From positions 1,054,001 to 1,118,000 of the forward strand of contig JAVSGI010000003.1 of NCBI GenBank assembly GCA_032334235.1: a stretch of DNA of 64,000 nt, read 5' to 3'. Under the pieces are notes generated by a model that was given only the letters and a program-made list of their open reading frames with translations, searched no databases and was not told the origin of the DNA. The stretch is from Paracoccaceae bacterium Fryx2 (lineage in GTDB: Bacteria > Pseudomonadota > Alphaproteobacteria > Rhodobacterales > Rhodobacteraceae). The position numbers and the translations under genes are program-made. Below, piece by piece: positions 9,998-45,336 of the stretch. Numbering within the stretch: the stretch's first letter is position 1; each line of letters starts with the position of its first letter.

Positions 9998-11161
9998 TCA
10001 ATACGCCTTGCCGCGCGCCGAGACCGGCCAGACCACCTCGACCTTGCCGCCCCGCACCCCGACATACCAGTCATGCACGTTGCAGGTCGGGTCGCAGTGG
10101 CCGGGCACCAGCCGCAGCTTGTCATTGACCTTCAGCACCCCCTGCGGATCGTCGATCACGCCATGCTCGTCCGAGCACTTGACGTATTTCACGTCGTCGC
10201 GCCCGAAGATCACCGGCAGGCCGCTGTCGACCGACTGCGCCTTCAACCCGGCATCGCAGATCGCCTTGTCGGCCTTGGCATGGCTCATCACGCTGGTCAG
10301 GATGAACAGCGCGTTTTCCCATTCGCCCCGGTCGATCCGCTGGCCGTCCCTGTCGAGAATCCGGCCGTAATCGGCATCCATGAAGGCATAGCTGCCGCAT
10401 TGCAGCTCGTTGTAGACCCCCGAGGCGCTTTCAAAGTAATAGCTGCCCGTCCCGCCACCGCCGACGATGTCGCAGGTGATGCCTTCGCCCGCCAGCGCAT
10501 CGACGGCATCCTTCACCATCGCCACCGCCGCCGCGATCTTCGCCTTGCGGTCCTCGTAGCTGTCAAGATGCTGCATCGCCCCCTGATAGGCCTGGATGCC
10601 AGCAAACTTCAGCCCCGGTGCGGCGTCAATCGCCCTGGCCAGCGCCACCACGGCGGGCGTGGTCACCACCCCGCAACGCCCGGCGCCGCAGTCGATCTCC
10701 ACCAGGCACTCGATCTCGGTGCCATGCCGCTGGGCTGCCGCCGACAGGTCGGCGACGTTGGCCAGATCGTCGACGCAGCACAGCGTGCGCGCCCCGAGCT
10801 TCGGCAGCCGCGCCAGCCGGTCGATCTTGGCGGGGTCGCGCACCTGGTTGCTGACCAGCACGTCCCTGATGCCGCCGCGCGCGAAGACCTCGGCCTCCGA
10901 CACCTTCTGGCAGCACACCCCGACCGAGCCGCCCAGCCGTTCCTGCAACAGCGCCACGTCCACCGACTTGTGCATCTTGCCATGCACCCGGTGGCGCATC
11001 CCCGCCTTCCGCGCGAAATCGCCCATCTTGACGATGTTGCGCTCCAGCGCGTCGAGGTCGAGCACGAGGCAGGGCGTCTGGATGTCGGCCTCGTCCATCC
11101 CCGGCAGCGCCGGAATGTCGTAGCCGACCTCAAGCCCGTCAAGTTTCACGGTCGCATTCAT
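9998..11161 (-). CDS. bhcC: beta-Hydroxyaspartate aldolase BhcC
   Basis: A 387-residue PLP enzyme of the D-threonine aldolase / alanine racemase fold type. The start at 11161 is preceded by GAGGAGG. Residues 50-65 (RHRVHGKMHKSVDVA) hold the PLP lysine region; GGGGTGSY near residue 235 binds phosphate; the C-terminal PGHCDPTCNVHDW has the histidine and cysteine that hold the metal in D-threonine aldolases. BhcC condenses glycine and glyoxylate to (2R,3S)-beta-hydroxyaspartate, the carbon-bond-forming step of the cycle. Confidence 0.92.
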   Translation of the reverse strand: MNATVKLDGLEVGYDIPALPGMDEADIQTPCLVLDLDALERNIVKMGDFARKAGMRHRVHGKMHKSVDVALLQERLGGSVGVCCQKVSEAEVFARGGIRDVLVSNQVRDPAKIDRLARLPKLGARTLCCVDDLANVADLSAAAQRHGTEIECLVEIDCGAGRCGVVTTPAVVALARAIDAAPGLKFAGIQAYQGAMQHLDSYEDRKAKIAAAVAMVKDAVDALAGEGITCDIVGGGGTGSYYFESASGVYNELQCGSYAFMDADYGRILDRDGQRIDRGEWENALFILTSVMSHAKADKAICDAGLKAQSVDSGLPVIFGRDDVKYVKCSDEHGVIDDPQGVLKVNDKLRLVPGHCDPTCNVHDWYVGVRGGKVEVVWPVSARGKAY

Positions 11162-11171
11162 CTCAGCCTCC

Positions 11172-12125
11172 TCAGCCCTGCATCCAGGGCAGCTTGTCCA
11201 GATCGACATTGCCGCCGGTCAGGATCACCCCGACGCGGCGGCCCCGGAAAACCTCGGGCGCGTTCAGGATGGTGGCCAGCGGCACGGCGCAGCTGGCTTC
11301 GATCACGATCTTCATCCGCTCCCACGTCAGGCGCATGGCGGCGATGATCTCGGCCTCCGAAGCGGTCAGGATGTCGGTGACATGGGCCTGCACGAAATGC
11401 CAGGTCAGATCCTTCAGCGGCACCTTCAGCCCGTCGGCCACCGTGTCGGGCGCGTCGTCCGCGATGATGTGCCCGGCACGGAAACTGCGCGCGGCATCGT
11501 CGGCCTGCGCCGGTTCGGCGGCATAGATCCGAACCTTGGGCGCGATCGCAGACAGCGTGAGGCAGGTGCCCGAAATCATGCCGCCCCCCCCGATCGGGGC
11601 GATCACCGCATCCAGCCCCTCGACCTGCTCCATCAGTTCGCGCGAACAGGTCGCCTGCCCCGCGATCACCCGCGGGTCGTTGTAGGGATGCACGAAATCC
11701 GCGCCCGAGGCCGCCACCATTTCGGCAAACACCGCCTCGCGCGAACTGGTCGAGGGCTCGCATTCCACGATCACCCCGCCATATCCGCGCACGGCATCTT
11801 TCTTGGCCTGCGGTGCGGTGCGCGGCATCACCACCTGGCAGGGAATGCCGCGCCGCCCGGCGGCATAGCTCAGCGACAGCGCATGGTTGCCGCTGGAATG
11901 CGTGGCCACCCCGCGCGCCAGCTTGTCGTCGGACAGCCCGAACACCGCGTTCGACGCGCCCCGCACCTTGAACGCCCCGGCCTTCTGGAAGTTCTCGCAC
12001 TTGAAGAACAGTTCCGCCCCGGTCAGCGCGTTCAGATAGCTGGAGGTCAGCACCGGCGTGCGGTGAACATATGGGCGGATCCGCCCGTGCGCCGCCAGCA
12101 CATCATCAAAAGTCGGTATCTGCAT
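11172..12125 (-). CDS. bhcB: beta-Hydroxyaspartate dehydratase BhcB
   Basis: A 317-residue fold-type II PLP enzyme of the serine/threonine dehydratase family. The PLP lysine is in GAFKVRGA near residue 53, followed by THSSGNHA and the GGGGMISG phosphate-binding loop near residue 175. The start at 12125 has AGGAAGG upstream. BhcB removes water from beta-hydroxyaspartate to give iminosuccinate, the substrate of BhcD. Only 10 bases separate its stop from bhcC. Confidence 0.92.
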   Translation of the reverse strand: MQIPTFDDVLAAHGRIRPYVHRTPVLTSSYLNALTGAELFFKCENFQKAGAFKVRGASNAVFGLSDDKLARGVATHSSGNHALSLSYAAGRRGIPCQVVMPRTAPQAKKDAVRGYGGVIVECEPSTSSREAVFAEMVAASGADFVHPYNDPRVIAGQATCSRELMEQVEGLDAVIAPIGGGGMISGTCLTLSAIAPKVRIYAAEPAQADDAARSFRAGHIIADDAPDTVADGLKVPLKDLTWHFVQAHVTDILTASEAEIIAAMRLTWERMKIVIEASCAVPLATILNAPEVFRGRRVGVILTGGNVDLDKLPWMQG

Positions 12126-12225
12126 CGTCTCGTCCTTCCTGCGCCCGGAACACGCACCGCGCCCCCGGTTTCTTCTTGGCACAAATACCCATCCTTCGCC
12201 CGCCCCGCGCACCGTCGCTGGCAGG

Positions 12226-13413
12226 TCAGGCCGCTTTTGCCACCCCGGCCGCCCCCGCCCGGTAACAGTCCTGCGCCGCGGCCACCCCCGACCCCAGCCG
12301 CACCGGCCAGCCCAGATCGGCCATGCACATCTCGGCGGTGGCAAGGCCGGACAGCATCATCACATCGGTCAGCATCCCCAGATGCCCGATGCGGAACACC
12401 TTGCCCGCCACCTCCCCCAGCCCGACCCCGAAAGCCACGCCGTAGCTCTCGGCGGCCACCCGCACCAGGTCGGTGCCGTTGCAGCCCTCGGGCACCACGA
12501 CCGCCGTGACCGTGTCGGAATACAGGTCCGGCGAAACCGCGCAGGGTTTCATCCCCCATACGGCCACCGCACGCCTTACGCCTTCGGCAATGCGGCTGTG
12601 GCGGGCATAGACGGCGTCCAGCCCTTCCTCCTCCAGCATCTCGATGGCGGTCGCAAGCCCCGCGATCAGCCCCACGGCCGGGGTGTAGGGGTAGCCGCCC
12701 GCCGCATGGGCGCGCTGCATGTCGGCAAAGTCGAAGAACGTGCGCGGCAACGCAGCCCCGGCCATCGCCGCCAGCGCCCTGGGGCTGGCCCCGACGATGG
12801 CAAGCCCCGCGGGCAGCATGAAGCCCTTCTGGCTGCCCGCCACCGCCAGATCCACCCTCCAGCCATCCGTCTCGAACGGCATCGACCCGATCGACGACAC
12901 GCCATCGACCATCAGCATCGCCGGATGCGAGGTGGCGTCCATGGCACGCCGGATCGCAGCGATGTCGGACCGAACGCCGGTCGCGGTTTCATTGTGGGTC
13001 GCAAGAACGGCCTTGATCCGGTGGGAGCGGTCAGCGGCCAGCGCGGCCTCGATGGCCGCGATGGGCGCTCCCTCGCCCCAGGGCGCCTCGATCACCTGCA
13101 CGTTAAGCCCGTGGCGGCGGCACAGGTCGATCCAGCGATGGCTGAACATCCCGAACTCTGCCGCCAGCACGGTGTCGCCCGGCGACAGGGTGTTGGTGAT
13201 CGCGGCCTCCCACCCCCCCGTGCCGGTCGAGGGGAACAGGAACACCTCGCCCTCCGTCATGCCGAGAACCCGCTTCACCCCCGCCACCGCCGGGCGGAAC
13301 AGCTTGCCGAAGGCGGGCGAGCGGTGGTCCATCGTCGGCACGTCGCACGCCTTGCGGATGCGTTCGGGGATGTTGGTCGGGCCGGGAATGAACACGGGGT
13401 TCTGCGAGGACAT
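12226..13413 (-). CDS. bhcA: Aspartate:glyoxylate aminotransferase BhcA
   Basis: A 395-residue class V aminotransferase. The start at 13413 (MSSQNPVFIPGPTNIPERI) is chosen over the ATG at 13434 because it matches the family N-terminus and has GGAAAGG upstream. FPSTGTGGWEAAI near residue 65 and MLMVDGVSSIGSMPF with the PLP lysine in SQKGFMLPAGLA around residue 195 are diagnostic. Such proteins are often labelled serine-glyoxylate aminotransferase; in a bhc operon the enzyme uses aspartate to turn glyoxylate into glycine, returning oxaloacetate. It is the first gene of the operon. Confidence 0.92.
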   Translation of the reverse strand: MSSQNPVFIPGPTNIPERIRKACDVPTMDHRSPAFGKLFRPAVAGVKRVLGMTEGEVFLFPSTGTGGWEAAITNTLSPGDTVLAAEFGMFSHRWIDLCRRHGLNVQVIEAPWGEGAPIAAIEAALAADRSHRIKAVLATHNETATGVRSDIAAIRRAMDATSHPAMLMVDGVSSIGSMPFETDGWRVDLAVAGSQKGFMLPAGLAIVGASPRALAAMAGAALPRTFFDFADMQRAHAAGGYPYTPAVGLIAGLATAIEMLEEEGLDAVYARHSRIAEGVRRAVAVWGMKPCAVSPDLYSDTVTAVVVPEGCNGTDLVRVAAESYGVAFGVGLGEVAGKVFRIGHLGMLTDVMMLSGLATAEMCMADLGWPVRLGSGVAAAQDCYRAGAAGVAKAA

Positions 13414-13607
13414 GGGCAACACCTTTCCGGACATTGCGGGGATTTTCTCACGTTAGCCCCCGGCACCCCGGCGCACAATTTTTTCGTCCGGCGCGGCGCG
13501 TCGCCCGCCGACCCGGGTTTTCCCTTGCAATTGCAGGGCTGCCGCGTTTTTCATCAGGTGAATTGGTTTTTCACATCCGAGAATAAATCCCGCGAAAGGC
13601 CCCTGCC
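13414..13607. promoter_or_regulatory. Divergent bhcA-bhcR promoter region with candidate operators
   Basis: The 194 bases between the two starts are less GC-rich than the genes. They hold a perfect palindrome TGCAATTGCA (13526-13535), an inverted repeat TTCATCAGGTGAA (13550-13562), and two copies of TTTTTCA (13547-13553 and about 13566-13573). BhcR is known to control the bhc genes of P. denitrificans in response to glyoxylate, so these are candidate BhcR sites; which one binds is not shown by the sequence. Confidence 0.55.
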
Positions 13608-14441
13608 ATGGCAACACGCTTGCCCGATGCCCCCGCCTCGCGCCCGCGCGGCCGCCCGAAATCGTTTCACGACAAGACCGAACAGAACACCGTGCAATCG
13701 CTCGACCGGGCGATGGGGCTGTTGCAGCTTCTGGCGGGGTCGTCGGGACTGACGCTGTCGGATCTGGCCGAACGCTCGGCCCAGGCCCCGGCCACGGTCT
13801 ATCGCGCGCTGGTCACGCTTCAGGCGCATGGCATCGTGGAAATCGAGGAGCCGGGGCAGCTCTGGCATGTCGGCGGCGGCGCGTTCCGCATCGGCTCGGC
13901 CTTCCTGCGCCGCACCAAGGTGGTCGAGCGCGCCCGCCAGCCGATGGACGCGCTGATGCGCGACACCGGCGAGACCGCCAACCTGGGGGTGGAAAGCGGC
14001 GACCAGGTGCTGTTCCTCAGCCAGGTCGAAACCCACGAGGCGATCCGCGCCTTCTTCCCGCCCGGCACCAAGGGGCCGATGCATGTCTCGGGGATCGGCA
14101 AGGCGCTGCTGGCGTGGCTGCCCGAAGACCGGGTGCGCCAGATCATCGCGCGGCAGGGGCTTGCAAGGTTCACCTCGCTGTCGATCACGTCCGAAACGGC
14201 GCTGCTGCGCGATCTGGCCCGCACGCGCGAGCGCGGCCATGCCATCGACGATCAGGAACGCGCCGAGGGAATGCGCTGCGTCGCCGCCCCGATCTTCAAC
14301 GCCCATGCCGAACCGGTGGCAGGGCTGTCGGTGTCCGGCCCGGCCTTCCGGGTCGGGTTGTCGGATGCGGGGCGGATCGGCGCACTGGTGCGCGCCGCCG
14401 CCGACCGGGTGACCGAAGCCACGGGTGGCGTGCGGCCCTGA
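13608..14441 (+). CDS. bhcR: IclR-family regulator of the beta-hydroxyaspartate cycle, BhcR
   Basis: A 277-residue regulator divergent from bhcA. The N-terminal winged helix-turn-helix covers about residues 25-85 (MGLLQLLAGSSGLTLSDLAERS...ATVYRALVTLQ). The C-terminal IclR effector domain includes MHVSGIGKALLAWLPED and AAPIFNAHAEPVAGLSVSGP. Position and family match BhcR, the glyoxylate-responsive regulator of the cycle in P. denitrificans. Confidence 0.9.
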   Translation: MATRLPDAPASRPRGRPKSFHDKTEQNTVQSLDRAMGLLQLLAGSSGLTLSDLAERSAQAPATVYRALVTLQAHGIVEIEEPGQLWHVGGGAFRIGSAFLRRTKVVERARQPMDALMRDTGETANLGVESGDQVLFLSQVETHEAIRAFFPPGTKGPMHVSGIGKALLAWLPEDRVRQIIARQGLARFTSLSITSETALLRDLARTRERGHAIDDQERAEGMRCVAAPIFNAHAEPVAGLSVSGPAFRVGLSDAGRIGALVRAAADRVTEATGGVRP

Positions 14442-33731: not shown

Positions 33732-35399
33732 ATGATTCCGGCCTGCCTGACCTTCATGGCGCCGGGTATAGGTGGCTTCTTCACCGTTGTGGTCATCATC
33801 GGCCTTGCGATGGTCGCGCTTTGGGTGCGCGGGCAGGCCTACTTCTTCGGCAAGGGCTATTTCATTCTCGGCAATCTGGGAATGCTGGTCTGGCTGTTGG
33901 CCGCACTGGCGGAACTGCAATCGGAAACGTTGTCATGCAAGGTGGTCTGGGCGACCCTTTCCTGGCCCGCGATTGCCCTGGTTCCGACCGCCTGGGCGCT
34001 GTTCCTGTGGCACTATGCCTTCGGCATTCGTGACGGGTTCGCCATATGGGAAAGGGTGGCGCTGGTCGCCGGGCCGGTGGCGATCACGCTCGCGGCGGTG
34101 AGCAACCCCTATCATGGCCAGTTCTACACCCCAGAGACGCAGATGATGATCCGCGACGGCAGGCCCTCGGTGCTTTATGACCACGGCCTGCTGTTCCAGC
34201 TTTCCGCGGTCTATCTCTACCTGTTTCTGGTGGCCTCGACCGGGATCGTGCTGGCCGGTGCCTTCCGCGCGCGCCGGGCGCACCGGGCCTATTTCCTGCT
34301 GCTGTCCTTCATCACCGTGGTGCCGATGGCGGCCAATCTGGCCTATGTTCTGCTGGATTTCACCGTGTTCGGCTTTGACCCGACGCCCTTCGCCTTTTCG
34401 GTGGTGCTGTTCCTGATCACCTGGCTGATCTTCACCAACCGGCTGTTCGACCTGACGACGGTTGCGCGCGACCTGCTGTTCTTCAACGTGAAGAACCCGG
34501 TTCTGGTGGTGGATCACGCCGGCATCGTCGCCGGGGCCAACCCCGAGGCGCTGCGCCTGTTCCGGGGGGCGGGCGCACGGCTCGGTGGCAGGATCGCGGA
34601 CTGGCCGCACATGGCCGCCTTTGCCGATCTTGGCACGGCAGACGCCGCGCGGGCGCTGCCCCGGATGCTGGTGATCGACGGGCGGCATCTGGAGGTGCAG
34701 ATCACGCCGATCGCCCGGCCGATGGGGCGGGATTCGGCGGCGATGGGCGCGGTGATCCTGCTGAACGACACGACCGAGCTTTACCGCATGAACGCGCAGC
34801 TCCGGACGGCGCTCAGCGTCAACGAGGTCCGGCTGAACCAGATCATGGCGCTGCGCGACGATCTGGAACGCCAGTTGGTGCTGGACCCCCTTACCGGGCT
34901 CAACAACCGCCGCGGCATGGAGGAGACCTTCGAGAAGTTGTGCAATGCCGCCCCCCCCGACGGCGACCGGCTGGTGATGGCGCTGCTGGACATCGACCAT
35001 TTCAAGTCGATCAACGACCGTTTCGGACATGCCGTCGGTGACCGGGTGCTGCGCGACTTTGCACGGGTGCTGCGCGCCCGGATCGACCCGGGCTGGCCGG
35101 TGTTCCGTGTCGGGGGCGAAGAATTCGTGGTGCTGTTTCCGGGTGCCGGCCTGACAGAGATCGACGGTCTGCTGCACAAGCTGAGACAGGATTTGTCGGT
35201 CGGCCAGTTCACCCGCATCACCGACCCGGCGCAGGTCACGTTTTCCGCGGGTCTGGCGCTATGGCCGCAGGACGGCACCACCTTCGGGGCGGTGTTCAAG
35301 CGCGCAGATGACCGGCTTTACGCGGCCAAGGTCGGTGGCCGGAACCGCACCGTGCTGCGCGACGATACGGACCGGATTGCCGCCAATGATGCGTTCTGA
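33732..35399 (+). CDS. Membrane-bound diguanylate cyclase (7TM + PAS + GGDEF)
   Basis: A 555-residue protein. About seven hydrophobic segments fill residues 10-245 (histidine-kinase-type 7TM sensor region), then a PAS-like domain (DLLFFNVKNPVLVVDHAGIVAGANPEALRLF), a short coiled coil, and a GGDEF domain with LDPLTGLNNRRGMEETF, LLDIDHFKSINDRFGH and the active-site GGEEF near residue 461. It should make cyclic-di-GMP in response to a ligand bound at the membrane. The start at ATG 33732 precedes MIPACLTFM. Confidence 0.92.
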   Translation: MIPACLTFMAPGIGGFFTVVVIIGLAMVALWVRGQAYFFGKGYFILGNLGMLVWLLAALAELQSETLSCKVVWATLSWPAIALVPTAWALFLWHYAFGIRDGFAIWERVALVAGPVAITLAAVSNPYHGQFYTPETQMMIRDGRPSVLYDHGLLFQLSAVYLYLFLVASTGIVLAGAFRARRAHRAYFLLLSFITVVPMAANLAYVLLDFTVFGFDPTPFAFSVVLFLITWLIFTNRLFDLTTVARDLLFFNVKNPVLVVDHAGIVAGANPEALRLFRGAGARLGGRIADWPHMAAFADLGTADAARALPRMLVIDGRHLEVQITPIARPMGRDSAAMGAVILLNDTTELYRMNAQLRTALSVNEVRLNQIMALRDDLERQLVLDPLTGLNNRRGMEETFEKLCNAAPPDGDRLVMALLDIDHFKSINDRFGHAVGDRVLRDFARVLRARIDPGWPVFRVGGEEFVVLFPGAGLTEIDGLLHKLRQDLSVGQFTRITDPAQVTFSAGLALWPQDGTTFGAVFKRADDRLYAAKVGGRNRTVLRDDTDRIAANDAF

Positions 35400-35553
35400 C
35401 CTGCCCGCCCCGGGAAGGCTCTCGCCGCCCGCCATGGGTTCGCTTCTTGATGCATCTGCCTTGACCCCTTCGGTTTGCTCGATGAAGCTGGGGACGCGCA
35501 GCACGACATGCCAAGACGATCACCGGCACGAAAAACGGCAAAGGAAACGGAAG

Positions 35554-36156
35554 ATGACGGCAGACCTTCAGGTTGTTCCCGCACGCAAGGGCCGGGCGGT
35601 GCGTCTTGCGCAAGGGCAAGCGATCCAGATCATCAACACGCACGGTCAGCAGGTTGTCGATACATGGTGCTTCAATGCCGATGACATGTCTGAATTCATG
35701 TCGATGGAACACCTGCACGCAGCCCTTCAGGGGATCTTCCCCGCCCGGGGCGATGGCCTGACGACAAACCGTCGGCGGCCCATTCTGACTCTGGAGGAAG
35801 ACACATCACCGGGCCGCCACGATACGGTCATCGCCGCCTGCGACGTGCATCGCTATGCCTCGCTCGGCTGCACGCAATACCATGACAACTGCACCGACAA
35901 CCTGCACGCCGCCCTGGGGCAGCTTGGTCTGCGGGCGGCTGATTGCCCCGCCCCCCTGAACCTGTGGATGAACATTCCCGTGGGCCCCGACGGCAAGATC
36001 ACGTGGGGAGAACCGCTCAGCAAACCCGGGGATCATGTGACCCTGCGTGCCGTCATCGACTGCATCGTGGTCATGTCCACATGCCCTCAGGACATGATCC
36101 CGATCAACGGCGCCGCGTGCAAACCGACCGAGGTTCATTACCGTCTGCTTGACTGA
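35554..36156 (+). CDS. DUF1989 (urea carboxylase-associated) family protein
   Basis: A 200-residue protein beginning MTADLQVVPARKGRAVRLAQGQ; the ATG at 35554 follows AAGGAAACGG. The GQQVVDTWCFNADDMSEFMSMEHL start, CTQYHDNCTDNLHAAL near residue 110, NIPVGPDGKITWGEPLSKPGDHVTLRA and CPQDMIPING near the C-terminus are conserved in DUF1989 proteins, several of which sit beside urea carboxylase. The cysteines and histidines suggest metal binding. No urea carboxylase is nearby in this window. Confidence 0.85.
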   Translation: MTADLQVVPARKGRAVRLAQGQAIQIINTHGQQVVDTWCFNADDMSEFMSMEHLHAALQGIFPARGDGLTTNRRRPILTLEEDTSPGRHDTVIAACDVHRYASLGCTQYHDNCTDNLHAALGQLGLRAADCPAPLNLWMNIPVGPDGKITWGEPLSKPGDHVTLRAVIDCIVVMSTCPQDMIPINGAACKPTEVHYRLLD

Positions 36157-36328: not shown

Positions 36329-37273
36329 TCAACCGGCCCTGCTTGGCCCGTGCCGGAACGGCGCACAGTCCCGCCCGTTGGGCAAGGTCGCGAGCAGGCG
36401 GGCAATCCCGCTGGCCAGCGGAACCTCGGGCCGAAAGCCCAGGGAAGCGGTCGCAAGGTCATGGGCGATGTTGGACGGCCCATCGCTGACTGACCCGGCA
36501 AGCGCGCCGGGGGTGCGAAAGGCAATCCTGGCGCCAGGCCGCAGGCTGGCCGCAATGGCGGCAACGTCGCGCATCGGAATTCCGGGGCCGGCGGTGATGT
36601 TGCAGATCCGGCCGCCGGGCGTTTCGACCTCGGCGGCGCGGATCAGCGCCTGCACCGCATCATCGAGATGCAGGTAATGAGTCATCTCGGCGGGGTCGGC
36701 ATCAAGCGTCACCGGATGGTCGGCGGCCATGCCGCAGAGCAGCGTTTCCAGCCGCGTCGGGGTGCGGCGGCCGGGGCCATAGATCCAGGACAGGCGAAGC
36801 GCCATGGCATCAAGGCCGTGTTCACGCACATAGCCCAGCACCGCCTGTTCCGCCGCGACCTTGCTCGCGGCGTAGACCGAGCGCGGCTGCGGCAGGGTCG
36901 CTTCGTCCACCCGGCCCGGGGTGGCGCCGTAAACCTCCGAGGTCGAACAGATGACAACCCGCGCGACGGCATGGGTGCGTGCGGCCTCCAGCACATGGGC
37001 GGTGCCCTGTGCGTTGATGCGCCAGATTTCCAGCGGCTGATCGGCCATCACCATCGGGCCCGAAACGGCGCCGCAATGCAGGATCGTGGCGAAGCCGCCG
37101 CTGCGGCACAGAGCGTCGACCTGCGCCGCGTCCGTCACGTCGCAGGGGTTTTCAAGGTCGCCCATGTCGCTGGCGACCACGTCGACACCCATCGCCCGCA
37201 GGCGGGCGACGAGGGCGGTGCCCAGAAATCCGTGCGCGCCGGTGACGAGGGTGCGGCCAAGCGCCCGGGTCAT
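36329..37273 (-). CDS. NAD-dependent epimerase/dehydratase
   Basis: A 314-residue extended-SDR protein. It starts at 37273 in a 4-base overlap with the preceding hydrolase stop. The Rossmann motif GAHGFLGTALV is at residue 11, the catalytic region has STSEVYGA and YAASKVAAEQ near residues 125-150. It resembles sugar or organic-acid epimerases. It is the downstream gene of the truncated hydrolase and still intact. Confidence 0.85.
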   Translation of the reverse strand: MTRALGRTLVTGAHGFLGTALVARLRAMGVDVVASDMGDLENPCDVTDAAQVDALCRSGGFATILHCGAVSGPMVMADQPLEIWRINAQGTAHVLEAARTHAVARVVICSTSEVYGATPGRVDEATLPQPRSVYAASKVAAEQAVLGYVREHGLDAMALRLSWIYGPGRRTPTRLETLLCGMAADHPVTLDADPAEMTHYLHLDDAVQALIRAAEVETPGGRICNITAGPGIPMRDVAAIAASLRPGARIAFRTPGALAGSVSDGPSNIAHDLATASLGFRPEVPLASGIARLLATLPNGRDCAPFRHGPSRAG

Positions 37274-37772
37274 AGCGCGGCCGCGACTTCCGCGACGAGG
37301 TCGGCCGTGCTGCGCTGGCGGCAGTATCCCTTGATCGCGCGGATCGAGGCGTCGTGGCGGTCTTGCGTGTAGGTGGCGCAGGCGTCGGGCACCAGCGTGA
37401 CGAGGTAGCCCAGGTCGCAGGCGTCGCGCACCGCCGATTCGACGCATTGGTCGGTGACCACGCCGCACAGGATCAACTGGCGCTTTCCCAGACAGCGCAA
37501 CAAATAGTCGATGTTGGTGGAAATGAAGACGCTGGAAGAGTTTTTCCGCAGCACGATCTCGTCCGCGCCCGGCGCGATGTCGGCGCAGACCTGCGCATCC
37601 CACGAGCCCCTTGCCACTTCAATTCCGGAAATCTTGTAATCGAAGCTGCGGTCGCGACCATCGGCGGTCAGGTTCTCGATCACGGCATAGATCACCTCGA
37701 TGTCGGCGGTGCGGCAGGCTGCTTGCAGGCGCTGCATGTCGGGCATCGCGATTTTTTCAAGCCGATCAAGGT
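37270..37772 (-). pseudogene. Isochorismatase-family cysteine hydrolase, 5'-truncated
   Basis: An open frame from ATG 37746 gives 158 residues; homology to the intact relative at 44689-45336 continues upstream to about 37772 (YDYYLDRLEKIA). It keeps the catalytic lysine region (VLRKNSSSVF) and cysteine (TDQCVESAV) but lacks the N-terminal strand with the catalytic aspartate, present as LRIDTQN in the relative. The missing 5' end stops at a junction with a similarly truncated permease on the other strand. Probably inactive. Confidence 0.8.
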
Positions 37773-37811
37773 AATAGTCGTATTTCCGACGTTCTGCGGC
37801 GGGAAGGTCTG

Positions 37812-38576
37812 AAGGACCTGCCGCAGCTTCTGGTGGCGCAGCACTGGCCCTTCCTGCCGGCGTTGCTGGCGGGGGGGCTGGCGGCCGCCGCCGTGGCGGT
37901 GGTCGTCGGGTTCCCGGTGCTGCGGCTGCGCGGGCACTACCTTGCGGTCGCGACGCTGGGCCTGATCTTCATCGTGCAGAGCTTCGCGGTGAACTTTTCC
38001 GGCCTCACGCGCGGGGCGCTGGGGCTGAGCGGGCTGACGGCGCTGACCTCTCTGTGGTGGGTCTACCTGTTCGTGGCGGTGACGATCTATGTCGCATGGA
38101 CGCTGAAGCATTCGTCGCTGGGCAGGTCGATGCTGGCGATCCGGGAAAATGAACTGGCAGCCGCCTGCCTCGGCATCCGCGTCGCGCGCACCCGGGTTCT
38201 GGCCTTTGCGCTGGGGGCGCTCTTTGCCGGGGTGGCGGGCGGGCTGTGGGTGCATCTGGTGACGCTGATCAGCCCGAACTCGTTCACCTTCCTGATGTCG
38301 TTCCAACTGGTGGTGATGGTGGTGCTGGGCGGCACCGGCAGCATCACCGGCGCGGTGATCGTCGCGGTTCTGCTGACCGTCACCACCGAGTTCCTGCGCC
38401 CGCTGGAGGAGGCCACGAACCTGTTCGGTGCCAGCCAGATGATTGTCGCGGTGGTTGTGCTGCTGGTGCTGATCTTTCGCCCGATGGGCCTGTTCGGCAC
38501 CGCCGAGCCCGATCTTTTCCGCGCGTTCGCCAAGGCCGCGAACCGCACCGACCCCCGACCCAACTCCAACCCCTGA
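37812..38576 (+). pseudogene. Branched-chain amino-acid type ABC permease (LivM-like), 5'-truncated
   Basis: The frame contains LRLRGHYLAVATLGLIFIV, GRSMLAIRENELAAACLGI and LAFALGALFAGVAGGLW, the LivM signature, and ends at 38576. A full LivM has about 100 more residues with several helices at its N-terminus, here replaced by unrelated sequence from about 37800. There is no credible start codon. It precedes a substrate-binding protein gene by 16 bases, as in liv-type operons. Confidence 0.85.
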
Positions 38577-38592
38577 GAAAAGGAGAAGAACG

Positions 38593-39751
38593 ATGTCCAA
38601 CTGGAAGGTGAAGTTCGCAGCCCTGGCGGCTGCCGGAATGGCGATGGCCCTCCCGGCCATGGCGCAAGACAAGATCGGGATCGCGGCCCTTTACAACGTC
38701 AGCTCGGGCGGGCTTGCCTCGCTGGACGGGCCGTCGCTGAACGGCGTTCAGCTGAAAGCCAAGATGATCAACGAGGCCGGCGGCCTGCTGGGCGGCCGCA
38801 TGATCGAGGTCACCGCAATCGACACCAAGGACGACACGCGCGAGGCGGCGACCGCAGGCCAGCGCGCCGTGGCCATTCCGGGCCTGTCGGCGGGCATCGG
38901 GCACAGGGACAGCACCTTCGCGCTGGCCTCGGCACCGCTGTTCCAGACTGCGGGGATCCCGTTCGTGACCTCGGGTGCCACGTCGCCCGACCTGCCCGCG
39001 ATGGTGGGCAGCGAGATGTTCCTCGTGCCCTTCGGCGATGACGTGCAGGCACATGCGATGGCGGATACGCCCATGACACGCTGGGCCTGCGCAACCTCGC
39101 GGTGTGGACCGACAACGGCATGGACTACACCACCGGCCTGTCGAAATACTTCGTCGAGCGCTTCACCGCGCTGGGTGGCACCGTCGCGATCTCGGATGTC
39201 TACATGACCACCGACACCGATTTTTCGGCGCTGGTGGCGCGGCTGCAATCACCGCCGGGGTGGACGGCGTTTTCGCCTCGTCCGGCCCCGATACGGCAGG
39301 CGTGATCGTCAAGCAGATCCGCGAGGCGGGGCTTGCGCTGCCGATCCTGGCGGGCGACGGGTTCGACACCGACCTTCTGGTCAGCGTGCCGGGGCCGACA
39401 CTGGCAACCAACGTGTATTTCACCAACCATGCCTATGTCGGGCTGGAAACCGGCCCTGCCGACACCTTCCGCGCCGCCTATGAGGCGGAATACGGCCGCC
39501 CGCCGGAAAATGCGTTCGCCGCACTGGGGTATGACGCCATGGGGCTGGTGGCAGACGCGATCACCCGCGCCGGATCGTCCGACCCCAAGGCCGTCTCTGC
39601 TGCGCTGGCCGCCACAAGCAACTATGCGGATGCGGTCACCGGGGCCATCGCCTACATCGACGGCAGCCGCGTGCCCAGCAAGCGGGTCGCGATCATGCAG
39701 GTGGATGCGGGCAAGATCACGCTGAACACCACCGTCACGCCCAGGAGCTGA
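38593..39751 (+). pseudogene. LivK-like substrate-binding protein with two frameshifts
   Basis: It begins with a signal peptide (MSNWKVKFAALAAAGMAMALPAMA) and a type I periplasmic-binding fold (IGIAALYNVSSGG). At about 39065 one base is missing after GCGGAT, and at about 39255 one G is missing in a G-run; the three reading frames join to a full-length protein of about 385 residues ending in ITLNTTVTPRS. Both shifts are -1 and lie in short runs, so sequencing error cannot be excluded, but the neighbours are also broken. It would bind an amino acid or related compound. Confidence 0.8.
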
Positions 39752-39827
39752 GGCGCACCAATGAAGGGGCAGCCCGGCCGTCGCCCGACGGGCGGGCTGC
39801 CCCGGCAAACCGATGGAGTGATTTCGC

Positions 39828-40619
39828 GTGCAAGTCCGATCCCTGCTGCTGCATCCCGATGACCCCCTGCCTTGGGGCATCGAAAACCCCGATGGTGCCT
39901 CGGCGATCCTGTTCGTGTCCGACCACGCGGGGCGCGCCATCCCGCGCGCCCTTGGCGATCTTGGTCTGGACGAGGCAGAGATTGGCCGCCACATCGGCTA
40001 CGACATCGGGATCTACGGGGTCACCACGCATCTGGCCCGCGCGCTCGACGCGACCTATGTGTTCCAGCCCTATTCGCGGCTGGTGAGAGACTGCAACCGC
40101 GTGCCGGGAAAGCCGCGATCCGTCCCGCTGGTCAGCGATGGCACCACCATTCCCGGCAATGCCGGTCTTTCGCCCGAGGAGCTGGAACAGCGCGCCGCCG
40201 AAGTGCTGCGGCCCTATCAGGATCAGGTGGCGTCCCTGCTGCAGGCCCGAAAGGCCGCGGGTCGGCAAACCGCACTGTTCGCCATGCACAGCTGCACCGA
40301 GATGCTGCGCGCCGACCCCCGGCCCCGCCCGTGGGAGATCAGCGTGATCGCGGATACCGACTGGCGGATCGGCACCGCGCTGGTAGAGGTGCTGCGCGAG
40401 AAGACCGGCTTCTGCGTCGGCGTGAATGAACCCTACACCGTGAACATGGCGGCGGATTACACCGTGCCTGTTCACTGCGAAAGGACCGGGGTGCCCTATG
40501 TGGAGATCGAGGTCCGGCAGGATCTGATCGGCGATGCGGCGCGGCAGCGCCACTGGGCGAAAGTGCTGGAGGGGATCTTCCCCGAAGCGGTCGCCCGATC
40601 CGGCATTCTGGCGGGATAG
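39828..40619 (+). CDS. N-formylglutamate amidohydrolase family protein
   Basis: A 263-residue metal-dependent amidohydrolase (PF05013 type). FVSDHAGRAIP near residue 28, YSRLVRDCNRVPGKP near 80, MHSCTEM near 150 and a late EIEVRQDLI are characteristic. Such enzymes split N-formylglutamate or related N-acyl amino acids. It sits after the broken transporter genes and before the RpiR regulator, so it is one of the intact members of the catabolic island. Confidence 0.88.
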   Translation: MQVRSLLLHPDDPLPWGIENPDGASAILFVSDHAGRAIPRALGDLGLDEAEIGRHIGYDIGIYGVTTHLARALDATYVFQPYSRLVRDCNRVPGKPRSVPLVSDGTTIPGNAGLSPEELEQRAAEVLRPYQDQVASLLQARKAAGRQTALFAMHSCTEMLRADPRPRPWEISVIADTDWRIGTALVEVLREKTGFCVGVNEPYTVNMAADYTVPVHCERTGVPYVEIEVRQDLIGDAARQRHWAKVLEGIFPEAVARSGILAG

Positions 40620-40925
40620 GGCAGATGCCGGAACATTCCGCCATGTCGATTCAGGATCAGGTGCGCCGCGAGCTTGCCGAGTTCACCGATGCGGAACGCC
40701 GGGTGGCCCGGGCGTTGCTGGGCGAATATCCGATGGCGGGGCTGGAAACCGTGGCGCGCCTTGCACGTCGGGCAGGCACCAGCGGGCCGACGATCCTGCG
40801 CTTTGTCGGCCGGCTGGGCTTTGACAACCATGCAGCCTTTCAGGATGCGCTGCGATCCGAGATCCAGGCCCGGCTGCAAAGCCCGCTGGCGCGATATGAC
40901 AGACTGGCGGAAGACGCCGGCGACG

Positions 40926-40953
40926 CCCCGACCCCCGACCCCCGACCCCCGAC
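40926..40953 (+). repeat. Four perfect 7-bp tandem repeats (CCCCGAC)
   Basis: CCCCGAC is repeated four times without mismatch inside the RpiR reading frame. A 7-base unit changes the frame with each gain or loss; gain of one copy or loss of two would put the two parts back in frame. This fits slipped-strand mutation. Confidence 0.85.
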
Positions 40954-41151
40954 CGGGTTGCACAGGCCATTCGCCAGAACATCGAGATGGCCGCGCAGGA
41001 TGTGCGCAAGGATCTTGACCGGATCGTCGCGCTGCTTGCCGACCCCGACCGCACCATCCTGTGCATCGGCGGCCGGTTCAGCTGGTTGATCGCGGCCTAC
41101 ATGCACCACTACCTACGCGAGCTTCGCCCGGGTGTGCGACTGGTGCGCGAC

Positions 41152-42560
41152 GGTTCCGCGGTCGTGTCGCGAATGCTGTGGAAATTCCCTGGCGGTGTGG
41201 TCCGGGCATGTGAAGGTTCAGTTTTTCAAGCTGCGAGGTCAAGGGGCATCGGGTCGAGGGGCTGGGAAAGCGTCTCCCAGCCGTCGACCTTGCGCATCTG
41301 GATCTGGCCGGAAGCCAGCAGCGCCCAGAGCAGCATCGGCACGGTCTCGGCGCAGGGCAGCACGGTCTGGGTCTTGACGCGGCGACGGAACTCCTCGTTC
41401 AGTCGCTCGATGGCGTTGGTGGTCCGGGCCGACTTCCATTGCGACGGGTCGAGGCGGGTGAAGCTGAAGAGCCGGTCCCCTGCTTCTTCAAGGCTGTCGG
41501 CAACGGCCTTGCACTTGAGCTGCCACTTGCGCAGGAATGCCTTGCGGCGGGTCTCGATCCCGGCGGCGGTGTCGGCGCAGATCATGTCGCGGTAGTCCTC
41601 GGTCAGCTCGTCATGGAGGAGCTTCGGTGCATGGGCCAGCAGGTTTCGGTGCTTGTGAACCGTGCAGCGCTGGATCGGCAGAGCCTCGCCCCAGAGCGCG
41701 ACCAGAGCGGCTTCCAATCCGGGGGCGCCATCGACGATGACGAATTCGGGCCGCTTCAGACCGCGGGCATCAAGGTCGTCGAGGAACTGGCGCCAGGCAG
41801 ATGTGCTCTCTCCACCCATGTTCTTGATGGATAACAATACCTTCTGCCCGTCGCGGCGGATGCCGATCGCCGCCAGCACCGAGATGTTGGTGGCCTTGCG
41901 GTCCAGCCGGGTCCGGATCACGGTGCCGTCGAGGATCAGCCGGACGATGTCCTCGTCGGCGAGGCTGCGGGCGCACCAGGCTTCCCAGTCCACCTTCACC
42001 TTGCGCCAGGCCCGGCTGACCACATCCTTGCTGACGGCGCCCTCGAACAGCCCGAACAGCGCCCGCTTGACGCGCCGGGTGTTGGTCCCGGCAAGATAGA
42101 CCGCCGCGATCAGCGCCTCGGCCTTCTTCGTCAGCCGCTGGTAGCGCGGCAGCGCCTTCGAGCGCCATTCCTTAGCCTTGCCGTCCTCGTCCTCGACCCG
42201 GGCGCGGGGCACGCGCACCGTTTCGGTGCCGAAGGTGCCGGTCAGCTGCCGCTCGCGGTGCCCGTGGCGATAGCCCTTCGCCTTCTCGTCGCCGCGACCG
42301 TAGCGCATGCGGCCGAGAAACTCGGCCAGTTCCTCTTCAAACATGGTCTCGATGGTCGCGCGGACGCTTGCCCGCAGGCGCTCCTCGATCGGGTCATACC
42401 CGGTCGTGTCGGGCAGTAGCGAAAAGGCCGAGCTGTCGGTAATGTCGTTCATGGCGTGATCTCCCTGGCGGTTGGCGCCGCCGGCTGGGTGGGTTTCAGT
42501 TCACCCGGAGATTACGCCGCCTTCAAATTTCCACCACTCCCGCGACACCACCGGTTCCGC
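41152..42560 (-). mobile_element. IS256-family insertion sequence, copy 2 (41160-42552)
   Basis: The same 1393-bp element as at 2214-3606, in opposite orientation. Its ends are GGTCGTGTCGCG (41160) and CGCGACACCACC (ending 42552), with an 8-bp duplication GGTTCCGC at 41152-41159 and 42553-42560. It interrupts the RpiR gene. Confidence 0.92.
41226..42452 (-). CDS. IS256-family transposase, copy 2
   Basis: A 408-residue transposase almost identical to copy 1, with substitutions near residues 150-156, 255-270 and at the C-terminal end. All core motifs (FVIVDGAPGLEAAL, HKHRNLL, TTNAIERLNEEFRRR) are conserved, so it is probably active. Confidence 0.93.
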   Translation of the reverse strand: MNDITDSSAFSLLPDTTGYDPIEERLRASVRATIETMFEEELAEFLGRMRYGRGDEKAKGYRHGHRERQLTGTFGTETVRVPRARVEDEDGKAKEWRSKALPRYQRLTKKAEALIAAVYLAGTNTRRVKRALFGLFEGAVSKDVVSRAWRKVKVDWEAWCARSLADEDIVRLILDGTVIRTRLDRKATNISVLAAIGIRRDGQKVLLSIKNMGGESTSAWRQFLDDLDARGLKRPEFVIVDGAPGLEAALVALWGEALPIQRCTVHKHRNLLAHAPKLLHDELTEDYRDMICADTAAGIETRRKAFLRKWQLKCKAVADSLEEAGDRLFSFTRLDPSQWKSARTTNAIERLNEEFRRRVKTQTVLPCAETVPMLLWALLASGQIQMRKVDGWETLSQPLDPMPLDLAA

Positions 42561-42933
42561 CGCCTGGGCCGACTACCTTCTGGATGTGCGCGAGGGCGAC
42601 ATTGTGGTGGTGTTCGACTTTCGCCGCTACCAGCGCGACGTGCTGGAGTTTGCCCGGGGGGCTGCGGCCCAGAAGGCCGTAATCGTGCTGGTGACCGACA
42701 TCTGGTATTCGCCCATCGCCGCGATTTCGGATTTCGTGGTCGCCTGCCCTGTCAGCATCCCCAGCGCGTTCGACAGCGGGGTGGCGGGCCTTGCGATGGT
42801 GGAGCTGATGACCGCCGGCCTGGTCGAGGCCCTGGGCCCGCATTCGAAGGCGCGGATATCCACGCTGGAAACCCTGCGCAAGCCTTTCAACCTTGGCCCC
42901 TGAGCCCGCAACAACCCTGACCGGAGAAGCCCG

Positions 42934-43427
42934 ATGCGCGACCCTCTGACGATGGTCTGCTACACCGACCTTTCGGGTCAGGTGCGCGGCAAGGGCTTGC
43001 CCGGCCGCCAGATCGAAAAGCGCCTGAAGGGCGGCATCGGCTGGACGCCCAACAACATCATGTTCACGGCGCTTGGCACCATCGCGCCGGGGCTTTGGGA
43101 TTCGCACGGCGACGTGATGCTGATGCCCGACGAGGCCACCGGGGTGGAGGTGGATTTCGGTGACGGCACGGCGGCGGAGCGGTTCTACCTGTGCGACGTT
43201 CGCAACACCGACGGCACGCCATGGGACTGCTGCCCCCGCAGCCTGCTGCGCGGCGCGGCGGCAGATCTGGCGCGAGAAACCGGGCACTCAAGGCCGATGC
43301 GGTGGTGCAGTCGTTCCTGCCCGAGACGCTGCTGAACGCCTACATCGCCAACAAGGAGGCCGAGTTCGCGCTCAGCCGCGACTGGTCGCCCGAAGAACTG
43401 TGCCGCCGCTATGCCGAGATCTACTGA
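42934..43427 (+). pseudogene. Glutamine synthetase-like gene with internal deletion
   Basis: Residues 1-115 match the N-terminal beta-grasp of glutamine synthetase-like ligases (CYTDLSGQVRGKGLP, GIGWTPNN, EVDFGDGTAAERFYLCD, CCPRSLLRGA). Near 43285 the frame jumps to the C-terminal 45 residues (LKADAVVQSFLPETLLNAYIANKEAEF...RRYAEIY). About 280 codons, including the whole ATP and glutamate site, are missing. It cannot be active. GlnA-like ligases of this kind often act in amine or polyamine breakdown. Confidence 0.82.
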
Positions 43428-43448
43428 AGCAGCAGACCGGGGGAACAC

Positions 43449-44189
43449 ATGGGAAAGCTGACAGGCCGCGTGGCCATCGTGACGGGGGCGGCAACCGGCC
43501 TCGGGCACGGGATCGCGCTGCTCTACGCCCGCGAAGGCGCCGACGTGGCGGTGCTGGACCGCAACGGCCCGGGTGCCGGAGCGGTGGCCGAGGCCATTGC
43601 CGGGATGGGGCGGCGGAGCCTGGCCATCGCCGTCGATGTCGGTGACGAGGCGGGCATGTCGGCGGCCATCGCGCAGGCGGTGGCCGCTCTCGGCCCGCCC
43701 GACATTCTGGTGAACAACGCCGGGATCGCCACCGTGTCGCTGCTGGAAACCATGCCGACATCGCAGTGGGACGAGATGATCCGCATCAACCTGACCTCGG
43801 TCTTCTTCGGCTGTCGCGCGGTGATGCCCCACATGCGCGCCCGCCGCTATGGTCGCATCATCAACATCAGCTCGCAACTGGCGCACAAGGGCGGCGAGGG
43901 CATGGCGCACTATGCCGCCGCCAAGGCCGGCGTGCTGGGCCTGACGCGCTCGCTGGCCTACGAGGGCACAGCCGACAACATCGTGGTCAATGCGATATGC
44001 CCCGGCCCGCTGCTGACCGACATGCGGCTGCCGCCGGAATGGTCGGCTAAGAAGACCGGAGAGTTGCCGGTCGGGCGGCAGGGCACGGTGGACGAAGTCG
44101 CGCCGACCGCCCTTCTGCTGGCCTGCGAGGACGCGGCCTATTACTTCGGCGCCACGTTCAACCCCAGTGGCGGCGACATCATGATCTGA
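43449..44189 (+). CDS. Short-chain dehydrogenase/reductase
   Basis: A 246-residue classical SDR. NAD(P) motif TGAATGLGHGIA at residue 13, NNAG near 90, catalytic serine in NISSQLAHKG near 140 and YAAAKAG near 156, with PGPLLTDM later. Asp near residue 37 (VLDRNG) favours NAD over NADP. It resembles FabG-type oxidoreductases. It is the intact enzyme between two deleted genes. The start is 21 bases after the glutamine synthetase-like remnant. Confidence 0.92.
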   Translation: MGKLTGRVAIVTGAATGLGHGIALLYAREGADVAVLDRNGPGAGAVAEAIAGMGRRSLAIAVDVGDEAGMSAAIAQAVAALGPPDILVNNAGIATVSLLETMPTSQWDEMIRINLTSVFFGCRAVMPHMRARRYGRIINISSQLAHKGGEGMAHYAAAKAGVLGLTRSLAYEGTADNIVVNAICPGPLLTDMRLPPEWSAKKTGELPVGRQGTVDEVAPTALLLACEDAAYYFGATFNPSGGDIMI

Positions 44190-44230
44190 TCCGCACCCCC
44201 GGCTGCAGCAATCCTTCCCGAAGGCACACC

Positions 44231-44666
44231 ATGACCGACACATCCGACATTCCGGCCCTTGCCGCACGGTTGCGGAACATCCCGACCACCATCGCCTGCG
44301 ACATCCTGAAGGATCACGGGCTGGCCGAACGTGTAGCGGTCGGGCTTCTTCCCTTGACACCCGAGGCGACCATGGCAGGGCCTGTGCGGATGATCGAGTT
44401 CCTGCCGGGCCGCCCGGAAATCCGCCACCCCGGCCCGCCCGCCAACTTTGCCCTCGTCGATGCGTTGTGCCCGGGCGAAGTGCTGGTGCTGTGCGCAGGC
44501 GGGTCGATGCAGGGCGCGGTGCTGGGCGACATGCTGGCCGCGCGCGCGCGGCCTGCAACTGATCGGCGCGCCGCAGACGGAACCGCGCCTTCTGGCACCC
44601 GCCTGCCGGATCGAGCGGATGCTGGCACGCGCCGGTGCCTGGACCCCGCCGCACAGCCTTGATTGA
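44231..44666 (+). pseudogene. RraA-like aldolase/regulator gene with internal deletion
   Basis: The first 100 codons match the RraA / HMG aldolase family (TTIACDILKDHGLAERV, GPVRMIEFLPG, CPGEVLVLCAGGSMQGAVLGDMLAARA). Just after the GDMLAARA motif the sequence shifts to another frame encoding a C-terminal piece (LQLIGAPQTEPRLLAPA...WTPPHSLD) ending at 44666. The conserved DGxxRD segment is missing, so the protein is inactive. These proteins act as 4-carboxy-4-hydroxy-2-oxoadipate-type aldolases or related enzymes. Confidence 0.72.
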
Positions 44667-44688
44667 CCCGTTCCCGCGAAGGTGACCC

Positions 44689-45336
44689 ATGCAACGCCCC
44701 GAAGACCTTGCCCTGACCCGCCAGCGCCCATTTGATCCGAAACGGACCTGCCTTTTGCGCATCGACACGCAGAATTACGTCTGGAACCCGGAGGTCGCCG
44801 CGCGCCACCCCTATTTCGACGAAACCCTGCGCCGGGTGGTGCTGCCGAACCTGCACCGCCTGCTTGCCGCCTTTCGCGCGGCGGGCGGCGAGGTGATCTA
44901 CACCGTGATGGAAAACCTGACCGACGACGGACGCGACCGCAGCCTCGACTACAAGCTGTCGAAGGTCTTCATCGCCAAGGGGTCATGGGACGCCAAGGTG
45001 CTGGACATGGTGGCACCGGCGGGGGACGAGATCGTGATCCCCAAGACATCGCCGGGCGTCTTCAACTCGACCAACATCGACTATCTGCTGCGCAACATCG
45101 GCATCGATACGCTTGTGGTCACGGGTTTTCTGACCGACCAGTGCTGCGATCATACCCTGCGCGATGCCGCCGACCGGGGCTTCTATCCGGTTTGCGTCTC
45201 GGATGCCTGCGCCACACATAACGAGGCCCGGCATCTCGCCGCGCTGAAGGCCTTCGGCCGCTATTGCCGCACAATGACGACCGATGACATCGTGGCCGAA
45301 CTGGCCGCTGCGTCGCCCCACACTGCCGCCTCGTGA
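44689..45336 (+). CDS. Isochorismatase-family cysteine hydrolase
   Basis: A 215-residue enzyme with the full triad: aspartate in LLRIDTQNYV near residue 22, lysine in VIPKTSPGVF near residue 118 and cysteine in LTDQCCDHTLRDAADRG near residue 152. Members hydrolyse amides such as N-carbamoylsarcosine, biuret or ureidoacrylate. The substrate is not known; the closest relative in the window is the truncated gene at 37270-37772. Confidence 0.88.
   Translation: MQRPEDLALTRQRPFDPKRTCLLRIDTQNYVWNPEVAARHPYFDETLRRVVLPNLHRLLAAFRAAGGEVIYTVMENLTDDGRDRSLDYKLSKVFIAKGSWDAKVLDMVAPAGDEIVIPKTSPGVFNSTNIDYLLRNIGIDTLVVTGFLTDQCCDHTLRDAADRGFYPVCVSDACATHNEARHLAALKAFGRYCRTMTTDDIVAELAAASPHTAAS

Follow-up and report, generated by a model that had tools for sequence, protein, structure and literature searches.

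What do the open and broken genes at positions 36329–45336 of a 64,000-nucleotide stretch of the Paracoccaceae bacterium Fryx2 genome (the window) have in common, and how and when were they damaged? Comparison with intact relatives makes it very likely that they are the remains of a horizontally distributed catabolic island of about 14 genes that was recently inactivated, that would have followed a gamma-glutamylation logic, and whose open genes are leftovers.

Gene content of the island and its intact relatives

Except for the amidase tail, the genes named here are Pfam matches above cut-off at the coordinates given, and every piece listed in the initial annotation was recovered in its place; identities refer to the intact islands L009–L012 introduced below. 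At the left end, an open epimerase/dehydratase-like NAD-dependent gene (epimerase-like SDR, 36329–37273, minus strand; PF01370, 1.5e-44; 57–58% to L009) adjoins, in the window as in L009, the isochorismatase-family cysteine hydrolase CH2 (37270–37797, minus strand; PF00857, 1e-30; 78% to L009 CH2), whose 5' end is deleted. DNA alignment to L010 places a head-to-head CH2/LivM fusion at 37798–37805, the junction of deletion 1. On the plus strand follow a LivM-type ABC permease without its first ~75 codons (37806–38576; PF02653, 1.7e-29; 84% to L011), a binding protein of the branched-chain-amino-acid/amide type (SBP, 38593–39751; PF13458, Peripla_BP_6, in two pieces; 83–85% to L011) and an open gene of the N-formylglutamate-amidohydrolase family (FGase, 39828–40619; PF05013, 7.7e-41; 59–70% to L009–L012). 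A MurR/RpiR-type regulator (40625–42903, plus strand), retaining HTH_6 and SIS halves by Pfam, is disrupted at two sites, one a heptamer array, the other an insertion sequence. It is followed, again on the plus strand, by a glutamine-synthetase-like ligase of the PA5508/PuuA type (GS), present as a Gln-synt_N_2 fragment with an internal deletion (42934–43427; PF16952, 1.4e-18), an open short-chain dehydrogenase (SDR, 43449–44189; adh_short PF00106, 3.3e-57; 81% to L009) and an RraA-like gene with its 3' part deleted (44231–44553; PF03737, 6.8e-6; 77% to L009 RraA). An AS-family amidase of which the final ~33 codons remain (44553–44665, plus strand; 70% identity to residues 420–452 of the L009 amidase in a protein alignment of 33 residues) and an intact second cysteine hydrolase, CH1 (44689–45336, plus strand; PF00857, 1.2e-35; 80% to L009; Asp26, Lys119, Cys152), complete the island. 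Directly to its left lies a DUF1989 gene (35308–36156), for which no counterpart was matched in L009–L012.

Intact islands were located by a CH1 scan of genome contigs, followed by tblastn of all pieces. Islands of the same order were found in Aurantimonas (L010, L012), a Loktanella MAG (L011) and a Rhodobacteraceae MAG (L009), with CH1 proteins 72–80% identical. L010 carries CH2 on the minus strand, followed by LivG, LivF, LivH, LivM, SBP, FGase, RpiR, GS, SDR, RraA and CH1; L009 has in addition the epimerase gene next to CH2 and the AS amidase between RraA and CH1, and L011 and L012 match the amidase too. Like the window, L009–L012 follow the order FGase-RpiR-GS-SDR-(RraA)-(amidase)-CH1 at 56–84% protein identity, with a divergent CH2 in L009 and L010. 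Unlike it, they are unbroken, and each misses one or more genes present in the window: L009 is without the Liv genes and L010 without the amidase, and RraA was not found in L011. The ancestor of about 14 genes is accordingly a union of relatives L009–L012, not a sister species. As each intact version forms a single block with this gene order, the proposal of a single catabolic unit holds, and the alternative of unrelated single genes elsewhere is excluded.

The initial annotation had counted six of ten genes as broken. The damage is confirmed against the intact relatives, but with the amidase tail added the count becomes seven of 11 recognisable remnants, leaving open the same four that it had named (epimerase-like, FGase, SDR and CH1). 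Ten of the ~14 ancestral genes are broken or lost, and seven lesions account for all of the damage relative to the intact islands: three deletions, two SBP frameshifts, the heptamer array and an IS256 insertion.

By its nearest plasmid matches the host most likely belongs to the Rhodobacterales. SDR or CH1 at comparable similarity occurs in only one of 395 sampled family genomes, which makes the island a patchy trait that was probably transferred. Integration as a compositional island or at a tRNA was rejected, as neither a GC shift across 36–45 kb nor a tRNA near the island was found.

Age of the decay and fate of the open genes

All broken fragments were checked for nonsense codons, and none was found. 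Most broken pieces show dN values of 0.11–0.26 to their nearest relatives (0.11–0.13 against L011 for SBP, the N-terminal part of GS and LivM), the RraA fragment being higher at 0.21–0.35; the open genes fall in the same range as most of the pieces (FGase 0.25–0.33, SDR 0.15–0.26, CH1 0.12–0.20). The divergence of the broken pieces is not clearly raised over that of intact-island pairs, and their dN/dS is as low as that of the open genes, with dS near or above 1 and thus near saturation, so that the dating is coarse and the time bound loose. Because the fragments are free of nonsense codons and their dN/dS equals that of the open genes, the sequences speak, within this coarse dating, for a recent inactivation and against the long decay implied when the island was first described as being in late decay. 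The case is one of ordinary gene loss, in which an accessory catabolic island is eroded piecemeal in an IS-rich genome. Loss through redundancy with a second intact copy was rejected: no close second copy of the island was found in the genome, and FGase and GS homologues elsewhere in it reach only 29–39%.

It is conceivable that, once uptake and ligase had been lost, selection retained FGase, SDR, CH1 and the epimerase-like gene as a reduced pathway: none of the four is shortened, their dN/dS matches the low values of intact relatives, and CH1 retains its catalytic residues and a confident predicted fold. However, dN/dS is equally low in the broken fragments, and therefore shows merely that too little time has elapsed. 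Moreover, the regulator is disrupted, the operon is severed at three places, and without the ligase the four genes have no evident common function, which makes their selective retention unlikely. With uptake, ligase and regulator destroyed, these four are most likely residual genes that damage has not yet reached.

The two cysteine hydrolases

The hydrolases at 44689 and 37270 had been described as clear relatives, and CH1 and CH2 are indeed 51% identical over 171 residues. A duplicated or two-step amide pathway had been proposed from this; two paralogues in one cluster were confirmed, but a simple duplication does not agree with the tree. Among 110 sequences, CH1 groups with L009–L013 (six rows, support 100/99), and CH2 falls into another well-supported clade, which also holds the L009, L010, L014, L015 and L018 sequences, plasmid copies from Klebsiella and Sinorhizobium, and further members. 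A recent or local CH1–CH2 duplication was therefore rejected, and on the tree the two are ancient separate subfamilies. CH1 and CH2 types occur together in the L009, L010, L014, L015 and L018 clusters, the L020 and L023–L028 clusters likewise carry two different cysteine hydrolases, and each subfamily occurs with different partners. The co-occurrence of separate subfamilies in several clusters favours two different hydrolytic steps, rather than a local duplication, as the probable arrangement.

CH1 scores 123.6 bits against the PF00857 cut-off of 27 and has the triad D26/K119/C152. The CH2 remnant also passes this profile, with about 45 codons lost from its 5' end, including the catalytic Asp; the invariant Asp26 and Gln28 columns are missing. 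The AlphaFold2 model of CH1 (pLDDT 89.6) finds its best PDB matches in 3KL2, BiuH, RutB and TrtA at 24–30% identity. RutB, BiuH, TrtA and N-carbamoylsarcosine amidase share the fold and the Asp-Lys-Cys residues with CH1, but they stand at only 24–30% identity, and the invariant motifs TDGRD and TDQC, common to CH1 and CH2 types, set these apart from solved relatives with TNVC/TNCC.

These structural matches would fit a biuret/triuret-type or other nitrogen-rich-compound pathway, in which the two cysteine hydrolases and the amidase act in series on ureido bonds; the amidase is distantly related to allophanate hydrolase and AtzE, and the three enzymes recall the sequence from triuret through biuret to allophanate. 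However, the intact CH1 homologue of L011 scores 74.7 bits against the BiuH cut-off of 370 and 85.1 bits against the RutB cut-off of 378 (NCBIfam), the window CH2 remnant scores 59.1 and 68.6 bits, and neither protein reaches any NCBIfam equivalog cut-off. Membership was rejected on these cut-offs. As the catalytic motif is TDQC and the pathway has no place for GS, FGase or RraA, we consider it quite improbable.

Lesions and their origin

Deletion 1 measures ~2.95 kb relative to L010, whose positions 328 and 3308 align to window positions 37780 and 37814. Between these endpoints L010 carries LivG, LivF and LivH; the window has neither these genes nor the divergent promoter region, and deletion 1 probably took out LivG, LivF and LivH entirely. 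Since the L010 alignment jumps ~2.95 kb from CH2 to LivM at ~37.80 kb, the 5' truncations of these two genes, initially counted apart, are by this alignment a single event. The kinds of damage first reported are otherwise real, with two corrections: SBP carries two frameshifts instead of one (near 39067 and 39245), running through three successive reading frames, and the regulator gene has been hit twice, by a frameshift at the heptamer array and by an IS256 insertion.

The reading frame of the regulator shifts across a tandem array of 4.7 copies of CGACCCC (40921–40954, plus strand; TRF) in the linker between the HTH and SIS parts; a second CGACCCC array lies elsewhere in the genome (contig C5, 716837–716864). 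The insertion is a 1393-bp element (41160–42552, minus strand) with a transposase at 41226–42452 (PF00872, 7e-71), bounded by L009 positions 3982/3986 in the RpiR alignment. It is flanked by an 8-bp target duplication, GGTTCCGC, at 41152–41159 and 42553–42560, and its inverted ends are visible in the sequence. Its assignment to the IS256 family rests on the Mutator-type transposase, the inverted ends, the 8-bp duplication and the 17 full-length copies, at >=96%, in the genome.

Nine of the 17 full-length copies lie within contig C3 1,008,778–1,194,094 (185 kb, 3.4% of the genome), a zone that encloses the window and for which the binomial tail is ~1e-9, the zone having been picked after looking. 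A further copy is present in the window at about 2214–3606. Two pairs of oppositely oriented copies, separated by just ~166 bp, share one layout (C3 1158083–1161039 and C5 1164492–1166810); in C5 the second member is partial.

The ligase has an out-of-frame deletion of 820 bp at about 43270–43290, of equal size against L009 and L011, so that the window copy is without ~270 central residues. Deletion 2 joins RraA out of frame to the end of the amidase and measures 1.67 and 1.71 kb against independent relatives, which thus agree on the sizes of both lesions.

Part of the damage might be ascribed to assembly or sequencing error, as the frameshifts are small, the genome is GC-rich, and such changes could in principle be errors. 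Three kilobase-scale deletions and an insertion sequence with a target duplication could not, and the heptamer array is not a homopolymer of the error-prone type; error is accordingly a very unlikely explanation.

Ligase identity and proposed pathway

The intact ligase of L011 gave its best PDB match, at full length, to 4HPP (PA5508, or PauA7, of Pseudomonas aeruginosa; 322 bits), with the next glutamine synthetase at 124 bits, placing it nearer the PA5508/PuuA-type ligases than true glutamine synthetases. The best NCBIfam model was gamma-glutamylputrescine synthetase (PuuA-type), with a score far under cut-off. Bulky amines are reported substrates for glutamylation by PA5508 (PMC6478659, PMC11335346), and joint over-expression of PA5506–PA5509 has been reported (PMC6246594). 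The gamma-glutamyl-amine ligases GoaS, PuuA, NpaA1 and AtdA1 are grouped with PA5508, and the substrate range of the island ligase may differ from theirs. The FGase of L011 scores 27.4 bits against the HutG cut-off of 278.75 (NCBIfam TIGR02017), and the window FGase has no match to this model, belonging just to the broad family PF05013.

A nitrogen-rich ring or amide compound had been suggested as substrate. The ring found no specific support, and because the ligase is nearest to the gamma-glutamyl-amine synthetase PA5508, the island is best read as having broken down an amine or amide, putatively through gamma-glutamylation. The whole island would import its substrate through a Liv-type ABC transporter (LivGFHM with the binding protein) under an RpiR regulator, and the GS-like ligase would attach glutamate to the amine. 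The dehydrogenases (SDR and epimerase-like) and the RraA-like enzyme may perform further steps, and the amide hydrolases FGase, AS amidase, CH1 and CH2 would release ammonia and/or glutamate.

The scheme resembles the E. coli Puu putrescine pathway in its import, gamma-glutamylation, oxidation/transamination and glutamyl amide hydrolysis, and a class-III aminotransferase adjoining 32 of 89 related loci recalls Puu-type pathways. It differs in using FGase and cysteine hydrolases for PuuD and a Liv ABC transporter for PuuP, and PuuB and PuuC are absent from the island. No established role of FGase or the cysteine hydrolases in a glutamylation pathway was found in the literature. Tentatively, the intact cluster could be a version, rich in accessory genes, of a pathway that is widespread but uncharacterised. 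In it a PA5508-type ligase would glutamylate an amine or amide, a distinct subfamily of cysteine hydrolases with TDGRD/TDQC motifs would act with an FGase-family enzyme to remove glutamyl or carbamoyl groups, and RpiR would exert control. A histamine/imidazoleacetate (hin) degradation cluster, in which N-formylaspartate would be a conceivable substrate for an FGase-like deformylase, was rejected on gene content and is scarcely credible, since that pathway rests on the FAD monooxygenase HinF, the enamine deaminase HinL and the aspartase HinI, with a gene list without GS (PMC6467879), and HinF, HinL and HinI are absent among the recognised genes of the window island and L009–L012.

A linked gene set in other genomes

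Around 79 CH1-like loci, FGase lies within about 10 kb in 72, GS in 72, both in 68, and FGase, GS and RpiR together in 53, set against just four FGase genes in all 5.47 Mb of the Fryx2 genome; the loci were picked by CH1 similarity alone, are not independent, and include some MAG assignments that look misbinned (L016/L017). Near-identical cysteine hydrolases were seen in L016/L017 and L016/L066, between alphaproteobacterial and Anaerolineae MAGs, whose contigs are probably misbinned. The PA5506–PA5510 cluster presumably carries the same gene set as the window island. A Klebsiella plasmid has the set with an APC permease and a class-III aminotransferase, and Sinorhizobium, Nitratireductor and Sulfitobacter plasmids have it with Liv ABC genes, the Sinorhizobium stretch being without an annotated GS. 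No description of an FGase-GS-cysteine hydrolase set was found in the literature.

Elsewhere in the Fryx2 genome, another FGase adjoins a GS-like gene at 5.7–14.8 kb of locus L111 (contig C3 606000–625900); its neighbours, judged on first residues only, look like a TRAP transporter, an aldehyde dehydrogenase, an Fe-alcohol dehydrogenase and an amine oxidase, and the locus perhaps represents a separate gamma-glutamyl-amine or ethanolamine pathway. The window also holds a bhcA/bhcC/bhcB cluster of the beta-hydroxyaspartate cycle (10000–14400), whose DNA is 76–77% identical to plasmids of Paracoccus and Leisingera.

The decayed island thus served as a pointer to a conserved set of RpiR regulator, GS-like ligase, FGase, cysteine hydrolase and uptake system. 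This set surrounds CH1 homologues in most of the 79 loci, also on Klebsiella and Sinorhizobium plasmids, and merits a search for its substrate.
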